Shown here: piece by piece, positions 34,888 to 52,110 of the stretch
How positions within the stretch are numbered: the first letter of the stretch is position 1
Layout: every line of letters begins with the position of its first letter
NCBI RefSeq assembly: GCF_011064595.1
Contig: NZ_JAALJI010000017.1
Location: forward strand, 62,001 to 126,000
Reading direction: 5' to 3'
Source of the DNA: Paludisphaera soli
GTDB taxonomy: Bacteria; Planctomycetota; Planctomycetia; Isosphaerales; Isosphaeraceae
DNA length: 64,000 bases
Position numbers and translations under genes: made by a program
Notes under the pieces: model-generated
What the model was told of the DNA's origin: nothing
Seen by the model: the letters and a program-made list of their open reading frames with translations, nothing else
The model's database searches: none

Positions 34888-35952
34888 TCACGCCTCGTCC
34901 GCCAGCCCGTCCGGGGCCTCCGGCGCGCGGGCCCGGCCCGGCTGCAATCCGATCGCCAGCCCGATCAGCAGGATCGAGCCGGTCGCGGCCGCCATGAGCG
35001 GGCCTCGCAGGTTGCGGGAAGGGGCCGCCGGCGTCTGGGCCTGGTGCACCAGGGTGCTCCCTACGAAATTCCGATCGTCGAAGAACTTGGCGTCTTCCAG
35101 CTTGCGGCGGACCTCCTCCTGCATCCGGGAAATCTCGTCGATCCGCCTCTTCTCCAGGTGGGCCGTCACGTCGTCGCGGCTCGCGACGGGCAGGGCGAGC
35201 AAGGCCCGGAGGCCGGCCTGCGTCTTCTTCAGGTCGGCCGCCTTCTCGGGGTCGCGCTCCCGGGCCAGGTCGAGGTCGACCTGGACCAGCCGCTCGGCCG
35301 TCGACCGGGCGAGATCCTCGGTCAGCGAGGTGAACGAGATCGCCGACGCGTCCTCGGGCGAGACGACGCCGGGCCGGCTCGACCGGGAAGTTTGCTCCGC
35401 GAGGCGCTCGGTTAGTTGATGCATCTCTTCGTCGAGACGCTTGGCGTAGTTATCCAGTCTTGAGATGAACCACCGCTGGTCACCGCTCTGGTAGTCGGAC
35501 TGGAGATTCATGTAGCTCCCGACCACCGCGTTCACGACCGCCGCGGCCTCTTTCGGCGAGGGGGAGGCGTACGCGACGCGGATGAACAAGGTGTTCCTGG
35601 GATTCTCGACCCGCAGGCCGGCCCGGACTTCCTCGCGCGGCGAGGCCGAGTCCCTGGCCACGGCGGAGTTCGAGACGTCGAGATCCGAAAGGGCCGTATC
35701 CAGGATGGGATCCGAGGTGAGCGTGGCCATCTCGGTCTCGATGACGTGCTCCAGGCCGAGGCCCCGGTCCGGTCCCGAGGTCGAGAACAGCCCCGCCGGG
35801 GGCGGCGAGACGCGGATCATCGTATGGGCCTCGTATTCGGGCTGCACCAGGGCGAAAATCGCGCCGTCGACGGCGGCCGCCGCGATCAGCGAGACGAGCA
35901 GGAAGGCCGTCAGGCGTCGTCGGGTCGATCGGTGCGAGTCGGGCACGTTCAT
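34888..35952 (-). CDS. Wzz-like chain-length determinant protein
   Basis: 354 residues from the ATG at 35952, behind GAGGAA. Two membrane segments, near 14-36 and 315-335, flank a long extracytoplasmic region with coiled-coil stretches (RLDNYAKRLDEEMHQLTERL; EKRRIDEISRMQEEVRRKLE). The N-terminal FALVQPEYEAHTMIRVSP and NPRNTLFIRVAYASPSPKEA match the Wzz family, which sets polysaccharide chain length. No tyrosine-kinase domain is attached, and no capsule genes adjoin it. Confidence 0.85.
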   Translation of the reverse strand: MNVPDSHRSTRRRLTAFLLVSLIAAAAVDGAIFALVQPEYEAHTMIRVSPPPAGLFSTSGPDRGLGLEHVIETEMATLTSDPILDTALSDLDVSNSAVARDSASPREEVRAGLRVENPRNTLFIRVAYASPSPKEAAAVVNAVVGSYMNLQSDYQSGDQRWFISRLDNYAKRLDEEMHQLTERLAEQTSRSSRPGVVSPEDASAISFTSLTEDLARSTAERLVQVDLDLARERDPEKAADLKKTQAGLRALLALPVASRDDVTAHLEKRRIDEISRMQEEVRRKLEDAKFFDDRNFVGSTLVHQAQTPAAPSRNLRGPLMAAATGSILLIGLAIGLQPGRARAPEAPDGLADEA

Positions 35953-36164
35953 GGGCCGCGTTCCTCGGTCGTGCTGGAAGAATTCGTTGTTCAGGTTGAT
36001 TCGGGACGGATAAGTTATCGTCGGGAATTCGGCCCGGAACAAGAGCCCGTGGCCGAAACGCCTCGGAGGGTCGGGCCCTGGCGGCGTGGCGCGGCGGGTC
36101 GTATGATCTCCACCCGATGCCGGAGAAGTCCGGGCGGATCGACGGGCGAAGGGAAGGGGGGCGC

Positions 36165-42937: not shown

Positions 42938-43230
42938 CCTTTCCCCATCGGCGGGGTCAGGTGGCCCGAAGGGCCGGACGAGGGGGCGGGCGAGCAAGAA
43001 AACCGGCGCAGGATCGGCCAGGTCGGCCTTCGCGAATCGTCCTTCTCCCCTTGTGGGAGAAGGTGCCGCGCAGCGGCGGATGAGGGGGCGGGTGCGAGAA
43101 GCCGTTGCCTCCTCGCGCCGTCCGCCTGGATGGTCCCCCTCATCCGCCCCTACGGGGCACCTTCCCCCACCGGTGGGGAAGGGAGGGCATGTTCATCTAA
43201 ACGTACTTCCCCCACCGAGGGGGTAGGGAG
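42938..43230. repeat. Cluster of four repeat family A elements between convergent genes
   Basis: Copies lie at about 42938-42985 (CCCGAAGGGCCGGACGAGGG), 43041-43090 (CCTTCTCCCCTTGTGGGAGA), 43134-43183 (inverted, CCCCTCATCCGCCCCTACGG) and a partial at 43205-43230 (CTTCCCCCACCGAGGGGG). The segment before the inverted copy (43105-43134) is a complementary form of the family's conserved tail. They fill the 398 bases between the helical-protein gene and the sigma-fusion gene; I see nothing else there. Confidence 0.85.
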
Positions 43231-43285
43231 TCGCGCGAAATCCGTCGGGATGTTTGAGGCGCGATCGCGAGGCCGGCGGCCGTCC

Positions 43286-44983
43286 TCAGGGCCTCTCGTC
43301 CAGCTTCTTCGACAACTCGCCGAGCTGGTGGCTGATGTGCTGGAGTTGACGCTTCAGCTCCCACATGGTCGGTTGCTTCGGGGCGTCGCGGCGGGTCGTG
43401 GCCTGGGGGAGTCGGGCGTGAGGGGCGGGGGAGTGGAGCGGGCTCGGAATCCGGGGGGTGGAAGGGGCGTCGTCGGGAGTCTCGCCGCCGCCGCCCTCGA
43501 TGCGCCGGGCGATGAGCCGGTCGCCGGGCTGGAGGCGATGGTTGACGGCGCCTTCCGAGCCTTTGAGGATCGCATCGACGTCGACGGTCTCCGTCTTCTC
43601 CTGGCCGGGCTCGGGCCGGTCGCGGACGAGCAGGACGTCGGCGTCGTCCGCCAGGCCGCCGGCCAGGACCACGGCGTCGAGGATGGTCTCGGAACCGGTG
43701 CAGTGGAAGCGATCCGGGTTCCGAAACGCGCCGATCAGGTAGTAGAACTGGCTGTTGTACGCCGTGACGTCCACGAACACCCTGTCGGTGTTCCCGGGAG
43801 CGATCGGGACGGGCTTGTCGGTTTTGGGATCAAATTCGACGAGCCCGAGGAGATCGTCGCTCAGGTATTTCATCAGGTGCCGGACGATCTTCTCCTTGAC
43901 CTCCGGGATCGTCAGGCCGGCGACGTGGACGTCGCCGTAGAAGCCCAGCGAGAGATTGCCGTCCGGGCGGACGAGGCGCTCGCCCGAGATCGGCCGGCCT
44001 GGCAGGGCCTCCAGCACCTCGACGAGGAGCAGGTCGGGCGGCTGGACGACGTAGGGGCGGAAGACCCGCGGCGGCGTCTGGCCGGCCTCTTCCGCCGCCG
44101 GGGCCGCCGCGACGGCGGGCTCCTCCGGGGGAGTCCCCGCGCGGCCCAGGCCGACGATCGCGATGAGGGCCAGCGCCGAGGCGGCGCCCGCTTGAGCAAG
44201 CTTGAACATGAACATCCTCCGGAGGACGTGTCGGGAAAGCTCGACGGCGCGGACGCCGACGAGGCCCAGGGCCGGGCGGCCCGCCAGGGTTTCGGCCGCC
44301 GCACTCGCCGCGCCTCGGACGAGCGCGACGGGGACGGCCGGCATGACGATCGATTCGGACTCGACCCCCTCGGGCGCGAGGCCCCGGCGCGCGAGGCGGC
44401 GGCGGAGCAGGTCGCGGGCGCGGGCGGAACGGCTGCGGACGGTGCCGAGCGGGCAGCCCAGCCGGGCGGCGGCCTGCTCGTGGGTCAGGCCCTCCCAGTA
44501 GCAGAGGACGACGACCTCGCGGTATCGCGACGGCAGCCGGCCGACCTCCTCGCGGACGGCGCGGTCGGCGTCGAGTTCGGGGGCGTCCGGGGCGACGACG
44601 GCCAGCACGCCTCGCGCCCGCTCGTGCTTCCGCCGCCGCGCCGCGTCCACTCGCGCCCGGGCCGCGACCCGAGTCGCGATCCCGTGCAGCCAGCCGCCGA
44701 CGGATTCCAGCCGGCGCGCCTCGCGGAGCCGGCGGGCCAGGACCAGGAACGTCGCCTGGAAGGCGTCGTCGGCGTCGGCCGCGTCGCCCAGCGTCCCGCG
44801 GCAGACGCGATGGACCATGGGCCCGTGGCGGTCGACGATCGCTTCGAAGAGCGCCTCGGCCTCCTCGCCCGTCGCCGCGCCGGCCCGACGCAGGAGTTCG
44901 CCGTCGGTCAGGCCGGCGAGCGTGCCCGACCGGAAGAGCGTCGTCATGTCCCGCAGCCGTCGCCCGGCCGAACCTTCCGCCAT
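43286..44983 (-). CDS. ECF sigma factor fused through a membrane segment to a Wza-like export domain
   Basis: 565 residues in one uninterrupted frame from the ATG at 44983, behind GGGAGG. Residues 45-113 are sigma region 2 ([34 protein letters not shown]), and 143-197 are region 4 ([40 protein letters not shown]). A membrane segment follows at 263-281, then an Ala/Pro linker. Next comes a polysaccharide export domain: [16 protein letters not shown] (311-326), [20 protein letters not shown] and an SLBB-like part (401-455). The C-terminal 25 residues look like a coiled coil. By topology the sigma part is cytoplasmic and the Wza part lies outside. No anti-sigma gene is adjacent. Confidence 0.88.
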
Positions 44984-45203
44984 GCCCGCCTCCCGTACGG
45001 CCTCGCGTCTCGCCCCTTTCCGCCGACCCCCATAGTGCCGCAAGGGGGGCCGGGCTATCCAGGAATCCCGGCGGTTTCGCGGGAATCCCCGGCCGGCCGA
45101 GGTCCCCCGGCCGGATTCGGCCCCTGCTGCCGGATCGCCGCGAGCGTTTTATACTGGGCGGGGGTGGCCGACGGGCGGCCGGAGAGGCTTATCGGGGGCG
45201 ATC

Positions 45204-48941: not shown

Positions 48942-49973
48942 TCAGGCCCGGGCCGGGGCCTTCTCGCCGGTCGCGGCCGCGATGAGCCGGTTGGCGGCGG
49001 CCGGGTCCTGGCGGCATTCCAGCAGGGCGGTGAGCATGATCGGGGCGACGATGGTGGCGTCGGACTCGATCACGAACATCGGGGTGTCTTCGGTCAGCTT
49101 GTCCCAGGTGATCTTCTCGTTCGGCGTCGCGCCCGAGTAGGACCCGTAGGACGTGGTCGAGTCGGAGATCTGGCAGAAGTAGGCCCAGGGCTTCACCGGC
49201 TCTTCCAGGTCGTACTTGATCGAGGGCACGACGCAGATGGGGAAGTCGCCGGCGATGCCGCCGCCGATCTGGAAGAAGCCGACGCCGGCCTCGCCCGAGG
49301 ACAGCTCGCGGTAGCGGTCGTAGAAGTCGGCCATGTACTCGATGCCCGACTTGGCGACCGACGCCTCGCACTCGCCCAGCTTGACGTGCGAGGCGAAGAT
49401 GTTGCCGAACGTCGAGTCCTCGTAGCCGGGGACGACGATCGGCAGCTTCGCGCGGGCGGCGGCCAGCAGCCAGCACTCCTCCGGGTCGCCCTCGTAGATG
49501 TCCTCGCCGATGGTGGTGACCAGGTCGTAGAAGTACTCGTGCCAGAACTTGCGCGTGCCGTTCCTGGCGGCGTCCTTCCACATCGGCACGATGAACTTCT
49601 CGACGGCGCGGAAGGCCTCGTCCTCGGGGATGCTCGTGTCGGTCACGCGCCGCATCCGGTCTTCGAGGATCTTGGTGTCGTCGGACTTCGAGAAGTAGCG
49701 GTACTCGGGGAAGTCCTTGTAGCTGTGGTGGGCGACCAGCCGGAAGAGGGACTCCTCCAGGTTGGCTCCGGTGACCGACAGCCCGTGGATCAGCCCCGCG
49801 CGGATGGCCGGGGCCAGGGTCACGCCGAGCTGGGCCGACGACATCGCGCCGGCGACCGCCCAGAACATCTTCCCGCCCGACTCGACGTGCCGCCAGTAGG
49901 CGAGCGTGGCGTCCCTGGTGGCGCGTGCGTTGAAGTTCTTGTAGTTCTTGAGGACGAATTCCAGCATCTTCAT
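48942..49973 (-). CDS. Deoxyhypusine-synthase-like protein (bacterial DHS family)
   Basis: 343 residues from the ATG at 49973 (MKMLEFVLKNYKNFNARATR). The DHS fold is shown by SSAQLGVTLAPAIRAGLIHG, TGANLEESLFRLVAHHSY, PIVVPGYEDSTFGNIFASHV and GVGFFQIGGGIAGDFPICVV. The catalytic Lys is expected in the last conserved block, where SGATPNEKITWDKLTED matches the eukaryotic VSWGK segment. Bacteria lack hypusinated eIF5A, and bacterial DHS-like enzymes are thought to make polyamines such as homospermidine; that is inference for this one. Confidence 0.87.
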   Translation of the reverse strand: MKMLEFVLKNYKNFNARATRDATLAYWRHVESGGKMFWAVAGAMSSAQLGVTLAPAIRAGLIHGLSVTGANLEESLFRLVAHHSYKDFPEYRYFSKSDDTKILEDRMRRVTDTSIPEDEAFRAVEKFIVPMWKDAARNGTRKFWHEYFYDLVTTIGEDIYEGDPEECWLLAAARAKLPIVVPGYEDSTFGNIFASHVKLGECEASVAKSGIEYMADFYDRYRELSSGEAGVGFFQIGGGIAGDFPICVVPSIKYDLEEPVKPWAYFCQISDSTTSYGSYSGATPNEKITWDKLTEDTPMFVIESDATIVAPIMLTALLECRQDPAAANRLIAAATGEKAPARA

Positions 49974-50370
49974 GGTCGGGCTCGGCTTGATACGGCGACG
50001 AACGACGGCGGCTCCCGCCGCGACCCTCGCACGGGAAAGGGATGAGGCGTCGGGCCGCGGGACGGCTCGACGTTCCAGCTTACCGAAAACCGCGTTTCGC
50101 GTAACCGTCATCGGCGACGACGGGAGGCCTCGGGCCGGCCTTCGGGGGCGAATGCGTGCTTGGCGGGCCGCGCGAGGTCCCGTCCGGGCGAAACCCGAGG
50201 CCGGTTCAAGCAGCGTCGTCGCGGGCGCCGATCTCAACGAGGCGGGATCACGCGGCTTGCGCCCGGGGCCCGACTGGCGTTGCCGGAAGTCTGCAAATCG
50301 GTTCAGATGCCGCGCGGGCCGAAGGATCGGCCGCTGCCGGGTCGCCGGACCCCACGGAGGAGGATCGCTC
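49974..50370. other. Intergenic gap of 397 bases between divergent genes
   Basis: Control region for the DHS-like gene (leftward) and the GT39 gene (rightward). A mildly AT-rich inverted stretch, ACCGAAAACCGCGTTTCGCG, lies near 50082-50101. The rightward gene has a strong ribosome site, GGAGGAGG. No gene or dispersed repeat is visible. Confidence 0.45.
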
Positions 50371-52110
50371 GTGTCGTCAGTCCCGCCCGCCGACGAGGCC
50401 GCACGCCCGGAAGGGGAAGTCGAAGCCCCGCGCCTTCGCGATCGGTCGATCGTCCGCGAGGCCCTCCTGATCGGGCTGCTCGCCCTGACGCTCAACCTCG
50501 TCGGCAACGGCCGGATCAGCCTGTGGGACCGCGACGAGCCCCGATACGCCGGCGCGACCCGCGAGATGCGCGCCAGCGGCGACTGGGTCCACCCCACGTT
50601 CAACGCCGAGCCCCGCTACCACAAGCCGATCCTCATCTACTGGCTGATGCTCGCCGGCACCGCGATCGGCGGCGACAACCCGTTCGGCGCGCGGCTGGTC
50701 TCGGCGGTGATGGGGACGGCCTCGGTGCTGCTGGCCTGGGGCTGGACCCGCCGCGTCCTGGGCGCGAGCGTCGGGCGGCTCGCCGGGTTCGTCCTGGCGA
50801 CGATGCCCTTGATGATGGCCGAGTCGAAGCTCTCGACCACCGACGCGACCCTCGCCTTCTTCTTCGTCGGCTGCCAGCTCTCGCTCTGGGAGCTGTGGAC
50901 GCGGCCCTCGAAGCGCGCCGCGGCGGCCTTCTGGGCCTTGCTAGGCCTGGCAGTGCTCACCAAGTCGCCCGCCGCGCCGGTGCTCCTGGTCGCGTCGGTC
51001 GGCCTCGGCTGGCTCTGCGGCGGGCCGAGCCCGTTCGTCTACGCCCGCCGGCTGCAATGGCGCTGGGGGCTGCCGCTGTTCCTGGCGATCGTCGTCCCCT
51101 GGAACGTCGCCATCCTGCTGCGGTCGCACGGCGAATACTTCAACGTGGCCGTGGGCTATCACATCGTCCAGCGCGCCACGCAGGGGCTGGAGGAGCACGG
51201 CGGGTTTCCCGGCTATTACGTCGCGCTGGGGATGGCGACCCTGCTGCCGTGGTCGGCCCTGATCCCGGCGGCCCTGGCGTCGGCCTGGGCGCGTCGCCGC
51301 GAGACTGCGACGGCCGGCTTCCTGATCGGCTGGGCGATCGGCCCGTTGATCCTGCTGGAATGCGTCCGGACGAAGCTGATCCACTACTACCTGCCGGCCG
51401 TCCCCGCGCTGGCGGTTTTGATCGCCTGGATGCTCGTGCGGGTCGGCGAGGGTTCGTTCGCCCTGGGCGCTCCCCGGCTCCTGCGGTTCGCCGGGCGGAT
51501 GATCGCCGTCGTGGCCGCCGTCGCGACGGTCGGCCTGGCGACGGCCGCCGTGGCGATCCTCCCCGGCCCGATGAAGGCCCCGGCCGGGACGATGGCGGCG
51601 ATCATCGCCGCGGGCGCGATCTACGGCTTGCGCGAGGCCGCTGCCGGCCGGCTCCGCAACGCGACGCGAGCCGCGATCGTGAGCACGGCCGCGATGGAGC
51701 TGGTCCTCGCCGGCTGGTGCCTGCCGGCCGCCGAGCCCTACCGCTCGTCGACCGTCGTCGGCCGCCGCCTGGCCGCCCTCGAAGCCGCGACTGGCGTCCC
51801 CCCCGCGCTCTGCACCTTCCGCCCGCCGAACGCGGTCTACTCCCTGGGCCACCCCGCCCCCCTGCTGCGGAGCCGCAAGGAGATCCTCGACCTCGCCGAC
51901 CGCTCCGGCTCCATCCTGATGCCGCTGACCCCCCTGGAACTGAAGATGCTCCGCGACGACCCCGCGTTCCAGGTCGACATCCAGGAGACCGTCGAGGGCC
52001 TCAGCATCGAGAAGGCCCGCAACGAGACGCTCCACCTCTCGGTCGTCCGCCCCGCCGCCGGGACCGGCCCCACGATCGCCGCGCCGGCCTCCGAAGCTGT
52101 GGTGCGGTGA
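50371..52110 (+). CDS. GT39-family (ArnT-like) membrane glycosyltransferase
   Basis: 579 residues from a GTG at 50371, seven bases behind GGAGGAGG. It has about ten to twelve membrane segments. The GT39/ArnT signature is the first loop: SLWDRDEPRYAGATREMRAS (about 49-68), with the catalytic acidic residue, then PTFNAEPRYHKPILIYWLML. Enzymes of this type transfer sugars from a lipid carrier to lipids or proteins outside the membrane. The C-terminal ~90 residues form a soluble domain. It stands alone on the plus strand. Confidence 0.88.
   Translation: MSSVPPADEAARPEGEVEAPRLRDRSIVREALLIGLLALTLNLVGNGRISLWDRDEPRYAGATREMRASGDWVHPTFNAEPRYHKPILIYWLMLAGTAIGGDNPFGARLVSAVMGTASVLLAWGWTRRVLGASVGRLAGFVLATMPLMMAESKLSTTDATLAFFFVGCQLSLWELWTRPSKRAAAAFWALLGLAVLTKSPAAPVLLVASVGLGWLCGGPSPFVYARRLQWRWGLPLFLAIVVPWNVAILLRSHGEYFNVAVGYHIVQRATQGLEEHGGFPGYYVALGMATLLPWSALIPAALASAWARRRETATAGFLIGWAIGPLILLECVRTKLIHYYLPAVPALAVLIAWMLVRVGEGSFALGAPRLLRFAGRMIAVVAAVATVGLATAAVAILPGPMKAPAGTMAAIIAAGAIYGLREAAAGRLRNATRAAIVSTAAMELVLAGWCLPAAEPYRSSTVVGRRLAALEAATGVPPALCTFRPPNAVYSLGHPAPLLRSRKEILDLADRSGSILMPLTPLELKMLRDDPAFQVDIQETVEGLSIEKARNETLHLSVVRPAAGTGPTIAAPASEAVVR

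Follow-up and report, generated by a model that had tools for sequence, protein, structure and literature searches.

A planctomycete ECF sigma factor joined to a Wza-like export domain, with a selected internal start that probably also yields the export domain alone

Planctomycete genomes encode dozens of ECF sigma factors each, many of them without an adjoining anti-sigma gene. In the window analyzed here, a 64,000-nucleotide stretch of a Paludisphaera soli contig, one such sigma factor shares a single open reading frame with a membrane segment and a polysaccharide-export (OPX) domain. The locus thereby raises the question of whether this gene supplies a one-protein link between envelope state and transcription, as a first-pass annotation of the sequence had proposed, or whether more than one protein is made from it.

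The frame is continuous, as had been stated: it runs on the minus strand from 44983 to 43286 over 565 codons plus a stop codon, with zero in-frame stops. The described domain order likewise holds, with sigma regions 2 and 4 on the N-terminal side of a hydrophobic stretch at about residues 263–281 and the export domain beyond it.

43286–44983, minus strand: long product of 565 aa, consisting of ECF sigma factor, linker, TM segment, OPX domain and short coil (open frame, Pfam, family alignment)
44989–44994, minus strand: Shine-Dalgarno sequence of the main start, GGGAGG, 5 nt before the ATG at 44983 (sequence)
44636–44836, minus strand: sigma-70 region 2, residues 50–116 (Pfam PF04542, Sigma70_r2, 3.4e-10)
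44411–44563, minus strand: sigma-70 region 4, residues 141–191 (Pfam PF08281, Sigma70_r4_2, 1.3e-15)
44141–44197, minus strand: hydrophobic segment, residues ~263–281 (sequence; within helix 244–282 of the model)
43856–44056, minus strand: Poly_export domain, residues 310–376 (Pfam 3.9e-11; Foldseek to Wza 7xfd, TMt 0.79)
43619–43723, minus strand: weak SLBB-like domain, residues 421–455 (Pfam E 0.05; Wza-like fold)
43295–43366, minus strand: coiled-coil-like C-terminal helix, residues 540–563 (alignment, model helix; kept in most orthologues)

Sigma-70 regions 2 and 4 are present without region 1.1 or 3, which is the composition of an ECF sigma factor (Pfam PF04542, PF08281/PF04545; Foldseek). 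An AlphaFold model of the full 565-aa chain, a check that the first-pass annotation had suggested, contains a confident sigma part, a Wza-like part and the C-terminal helix 540–563, while the hydrophobic stretch forms the end of one long helix (244–282). The mean pLDDT is 75.8 and the pTM 0.39, and the positions of the domains relative to each other are therefore not fixed. The best Foldseek matches are Wza/OPX chains, which align to the C-terminal part (7xfd, E 4.6e-11, TMt 0.79; class 3 WzaB 9n9a), followed by a second group of ECF sigma factors matching the N-terminal part. A membrane helix thus links sigma factor and external domain within a single chain, as in tethered ECF sigma factors, and hydrophobicity together with the model suggests that the long product is inserted in the membrane by this single helix. 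No anti-sigma domain was matched by Pfam anywhere in the chain, and the model places unassigned linker helices at residues 219–233 and 244–262.

The export domain had been called Wza-like, which holds for the fold but not for the class. Poly_export and a weak SLBB domain occur without Wza_C and without GfcC (Pfam, Foldseek), the C-terminal coil is hydrophilic and the Wza_C outer-membrane helix of OPX class 1 (Wza) is absent in alignment and model, and the sequence of the focal signal region holds no lipobox Cys. What is left corresponds to a class 3-like OPX core. This core (short-product residues 125–170; 43286–44215, minus strand) also resembles designed SAKe propeller proteins (PDB 8pju and relatives, E 1e-13), matches which may reflect chance kelch-like similarity.

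A search for the same architecture among the nearest 59 genomes recovered the full-length fusion in all six genomes of the genus (the focal genome and five others) and in about 13 further Isosphaeraceae-type genomes of the family, and across the orthologue alignment invariant residues are preserved in both halves, including sigma regions 2 and 4. Because the identical fusion recurs in so many genomes, an assembly artefact or a misread gene boundary is ruled out. The absence of a recognizable adjoining anti-sigma gene was likewise borne out: the Pfam-identified neighbors are HisD, a sugar nucleotidyltransferase, a pRiA4b ORF-3 protein, EamA and PMT, and the remaining neighbors have no Pfam match. 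According to the same scan, the fusion gene lies outside any polysaccharide operon. In six loci compared with their flanks, no neighbor is conserved outside close relatives, which argues against an operon partner; a free OPX gene adjoins only in the clade of L034 (4827–8300) and L036 (2322–5608), where it directly follows the fusion and the ends carry similar short coils. The same genome, like most of the family, also encodes a separate, free-standing OPX lipoprotein (signal ending ..CGCQTV).

Further observations concern the surroundings of the gene. About 7 kb away on the same strand, and not in an operon with the fusion, lies a gene for what appears by eye to be a Wzz/GumC-like chain-length regulator without a Pfam match (34888–36042, minus strand). 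The intergenic region past the fusion gene (42940–43240) contains palindromes of the type CACCTTCTCCC..GGGAGAAGG in several copies, which are REP-like or terminator-like. At 48942–50603 (minus strand), a deoxyhypusine synthase-like protein is encoded (Pfam DS 2.9e-37), a family which is mainly archaeal and eukaryotic.

The fusion belongs to a wider set of genes. Many paralogues in each genome match residues 1 to ~280, a part that takes in the membrane helix, and 66 sigma region 2 domains were counted in the own genome. Among 100 scanned C-terminal parts, Poly_export (9), CarboxypepD_reg (9), AhpC-TSA (5), WD40 (4) and Secretin_N (4) were found, with 104 Pfam families matched in total. Since so many different exported-type domains follow it, the ECF-linker-TM stub is a promiscuous module attached to domains of this type. 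In the own and related genomes, the paralogue loci L110–L199 combine ECF stubs with Secretin_N, AhpC/TSA, WD40, CarboxypepD_reg and Ig-like domains, which likely represent a wide set of sensor types. The proposal that the polysaccharide-export part acts as the sensor is therefore to be narrowed: an exported OPX domain is present, but it belongs to one of many tethered-ECF members with swapped exported domains and would be one sensor among many.

The first-pass annotation had overlooked an internal Shine-Dalgarno sequence and ATG in front of the membrane helix. At the N-terminal edge of this helix, the focal gene reads CTC CGG AGG ATG TTC ATG TTC AAG, and its two starts, main and internal, both have GGAGG 5–6 nt upstream of the ATG.

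44216–44220, minus strand: internal Shine-Dalgarno sequence GGAGG in codons 255–256, CGG AGG (sequence; codon-level conservation across 131 members)
44207–44209, minus strand: proposed internal start ATG (M259), 6 nt past GGAGG (sequence, family comparison)
43286–44209, minus strand: proposed short product of 307 aa, consisting of signal peptide, OPX domain and coil (internal Shine-Dalgarno sequence and ATG; starts of free homologues)

The preceding Met, M257 (44213–44215), abuts GGAGG directly. Among fusion orthologues the residues encoded at the site differ (RRM, RSM, WRM, WSM, WSL.M, RSL.M), while GGAG and a subsequent ATG are constant. Across the wider family the motif takes the form [EQK][GE]V, with codons xAA GGA GTN or xAG GAG GTN and then ATG; about a quarter of the members are without a core Shine-Dalgarno sequence, and many of these have AAGGGG. 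In three complete genomes of the genus the 16S rRNA 3′ end is GGTTGGATCACCTCCTTT, with a canonical anti-Shine-Dalgarno sequence; this 3′ end was not found in the focal draft assembly. Free-standing OPX homologues begin at positions −6 to +3 relative to the aligned Met, each with a Shine-Dalgarno sequence of its own, and, by a loose pattern, 91 of 129 family members have an AxA-type site after the hydrophobic core.

Selection on this site was assessed against synonymous recoding of 131 family members with each gene's own codon usage. A Shine-Dalgarno-like tetramer precedes the conserved Met in 85 of the 131, as opposed to 26.1 ± 3.8 after recoding (z 15.5), the family members being non-independent samples in these counts. 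No other tested column gave a comparable peak, except for the shoulders of the same site. Pairing to CCUCCUUU is 2.2 kcal/mol stronger at the site than in recoded sequences (t = −13.3), and the peak persists once sequences more than 70% alike are left out (t −12.3). The excess recurs in each stratum: 17 of 19 members against 4.1 expected in the own genome (z 9.0), 50 of 67 against 16.0 in other Isosphaeraceae (z 12.0) and 29 of 45 against 11.2 in a mostly Gemmataceae group (z 8.1). Gly at the site is coded GGA in 54 of 67 cases (81%), compared with 11% overall, and within [EQK]G[VA] the hexamer AAGGAG occurs 34 times out of 47 at the site and 4 times out of 110 elsewhere in the same ORFs. Amino-acid or codon-pair context is ruled out as the cause of GGA, as the same di- and tripeptides occur elsewhere in these ORFs without it. 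Furthermore, a Shine-Dalgarno sequence lies 5–12 nt upstream of 110 of 162 Mets at the site, as opposed to 90 of 996 other Mets in the same ORFs. A Shine-Dalgarno sequence and a start codon inside the ORF are thus under selection.

What the selected site does can be read in several ways. The gene might yield the full chain only, with OPX sensing the envelope and two-step proteolysis freeing the sigma factor as in IutY; the Shine-Dalgarno-like motif would then slow the ribosome so that the secretion machinery can take up the membrane helix. This account fits the conserved full-length frame and has precedents in IutY and ECF48/52/53 (PMC8999054), but a pause signal requires neither an ATG at a fixed distance nor movement together with one. 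When the Shine-Dalgarno sequence adjoins the helix (the “late” class), the ATG stands at +2 codons in 16 of 17 members, as opposed to 8 of 83 in the “early” class (p 8e-12). The late class also lacks the G/E residue dictated by the early Shine-Dalgarno sequence (p 1e-9), a difference which arises in part by construction, since this motif served to define the early class. No Poly_export signature is present in four to five late members whose ATG is shifted (L032, L160, L182, L198, L199). Spacing between Shine-Dalgarno sequence and ATG is 5–9 nt in the late class, which includes the focal gene, like that of ordinary starts here; in the early class, comprising most of the wider family, it is 11–12 nt, which is usable and suboptimal, as ordinary starts peak at 6–9 nt and are still 2–3-fold enriched at 10–12 nt. 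In a phylogenetic paired test of co-movement the direction was consistent, with approximately four independent supported pairs, and not significant alone. No Shine-Dalgarno-like motif precedes the TM helix in 29 kinases of similar topology with one such helix, which rules out a generic pre-TM pause motif. Together, co-movement, spacing, the kinase control and the starts of free homologues favor initiation over pausing, and the full chain as sole product appears unlikely.

Alternatively, the Shine-Dalgarno sequence and ATG could be a relic, now without use, of the fusion between an ECF gene and the gene downstream of it, as the free OPX homologues that begin at the homologous residue with their own Shine-Dalgarno sequence would lead one to expect. 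With a median of 0.43 changes per site, terminal branches are long enough that neutral synonymous sites should be randomized; GGA nevertheless stands at 81%, which makes a relic very improbable. The nucleotide-level conservation could also reflect a different kind of nucleic-acid signal, for instance a promoter element within the gene or a site bound by a protein, but the site matches the anti-Shine-Dalgarno sequence of the genus and falls within the start window of an ATG, so that we give this idea similarly little credence. Finally, the good Wza-like fold could mean that the OPX part functions as a subunit of a polysaccharide translocon, with a sigma part that is inert or only anchors the chain in the membrane. 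This is hardly credible given that the invariant residues of sigma regions 2 and 4 are kept in all orthologues, the Wza_C outer-membrane helix is absent, a separate lipoprotein OPX exists and the gene is not in a polysaccharide operon.

It is therefore proposed, as the rather probable reading, that two in-frame proteins arise from this gene: the sigma factor tethered to the membrane together with its OPX domain, and the OPX domain by itself, initiated internally and exported. That one protein connects the envelope with transcription remains a reasonable idea as far as the single conserved chain without adjoining anti-sigma gene is concerned; it requires amendment in that, with a selected internal ribosome-binding site and start at the TM boundary, the export part is probably translated separately as well and then carries a signal peptide of its own. 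From the selection acting on the sequence we infer that initiation occurs in vivo at the ATG at 44207–44209. In the long product, the ECF sigma factor would reside in the cytoplasm and the OPX domain in the periplasm (N-in/C-out), with one helix as anchor in the cytoplasmic membrane. Ribosomes starting at the internal Shine-Dalgarno sequence and ATG, at the edge of the membrane helix, would turn this anchor into the core of an N-terminal signal peptide, and the OPX domain would be exported free of the sigma factor. As their likeliest role, the free exported domains would be the working or oligomerizing partners; tethered copies in the same assembly could report its state and yield the sigma domain, probably through intramembrane proteolysis by analogy with IutY. 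An assembly in which free and tethered OPX domains mix, with proteolytic sigma release, is the likeliest working model. It is also fairly likely that the planctomycete tethered sigma family, with at least 17 genes in the own genome, is dual-product throughout, each gene giving a tethered sigma-sensor and a free exported sensor; sensor and reporter would therefore be tuned by one mRNA. The common anchor stub, combined with exported domains that can be exchanged, offers a general outline answer to how planctomycete ECF sigma factors are controlled, and with a selected internal start each gene would in addition determine the proportion of free to tethered sensor. The dual-product reading would alter the annotation of these genes. 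No earlier report of a family-wide internal start or of a Poly_export fusion was found in the literature searched, primary ECF classifications aside.

Groups of planctomycete ECF sigma factors, including some with C-terminal WD40 domains, were reportedly distinguished by Jogler in 2012. The WD40-type sigma factors resemble the fusion in belonging to the same phylum, in their expanded paralogues and in their C-terminal extensions, whereas neither a Poly_export fusion nor an internal Shine-Dalgarno sequence and ATG was found for them in the literature searched. In the Tuwongella proteome, planctomycete ECF sigma factors with C-terminal WD40 domains occur in detergent-soluble fractions (PMC8567305). 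IutY of Pseudomonas putida (ECF243), whose sigma factor is released by Prc and RseP, and the actinobacterial ECF48/52/53 (SCO4117) share with the fusion an ECF sigma factor, a C-terminal membrane segment and an external domain (PMC8999054). They carry anti-sigma or zinc-finger parts. The fusion is distinguished from them by an unassigned linker, its OPX domain and the selected internal start. OPX class 3 proteins (M. xanthus WzaX/S/B; PDB 7xfd, 9n9a; PMC9603273) have the same Poly_export and SLBB core without Wza_C; the fusion differs in the sigma factor joined through a TM helix, the proline-rich tail and the short C-terminal coil. Long and short partners made from alternative in-frame starts are known from SsaQ/SpaO, ArcB, ClpB and MrcB, and such N-terminal proteoform pairs are enriched among oligomeric proteins (PMC11005335). 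Unlike pairs of the SsaQ/SpaO type, the fusion has its second start at the TM boundary, where an anchor would become a signal peptide, and this start is conserved over a whole multi-paralogue family.
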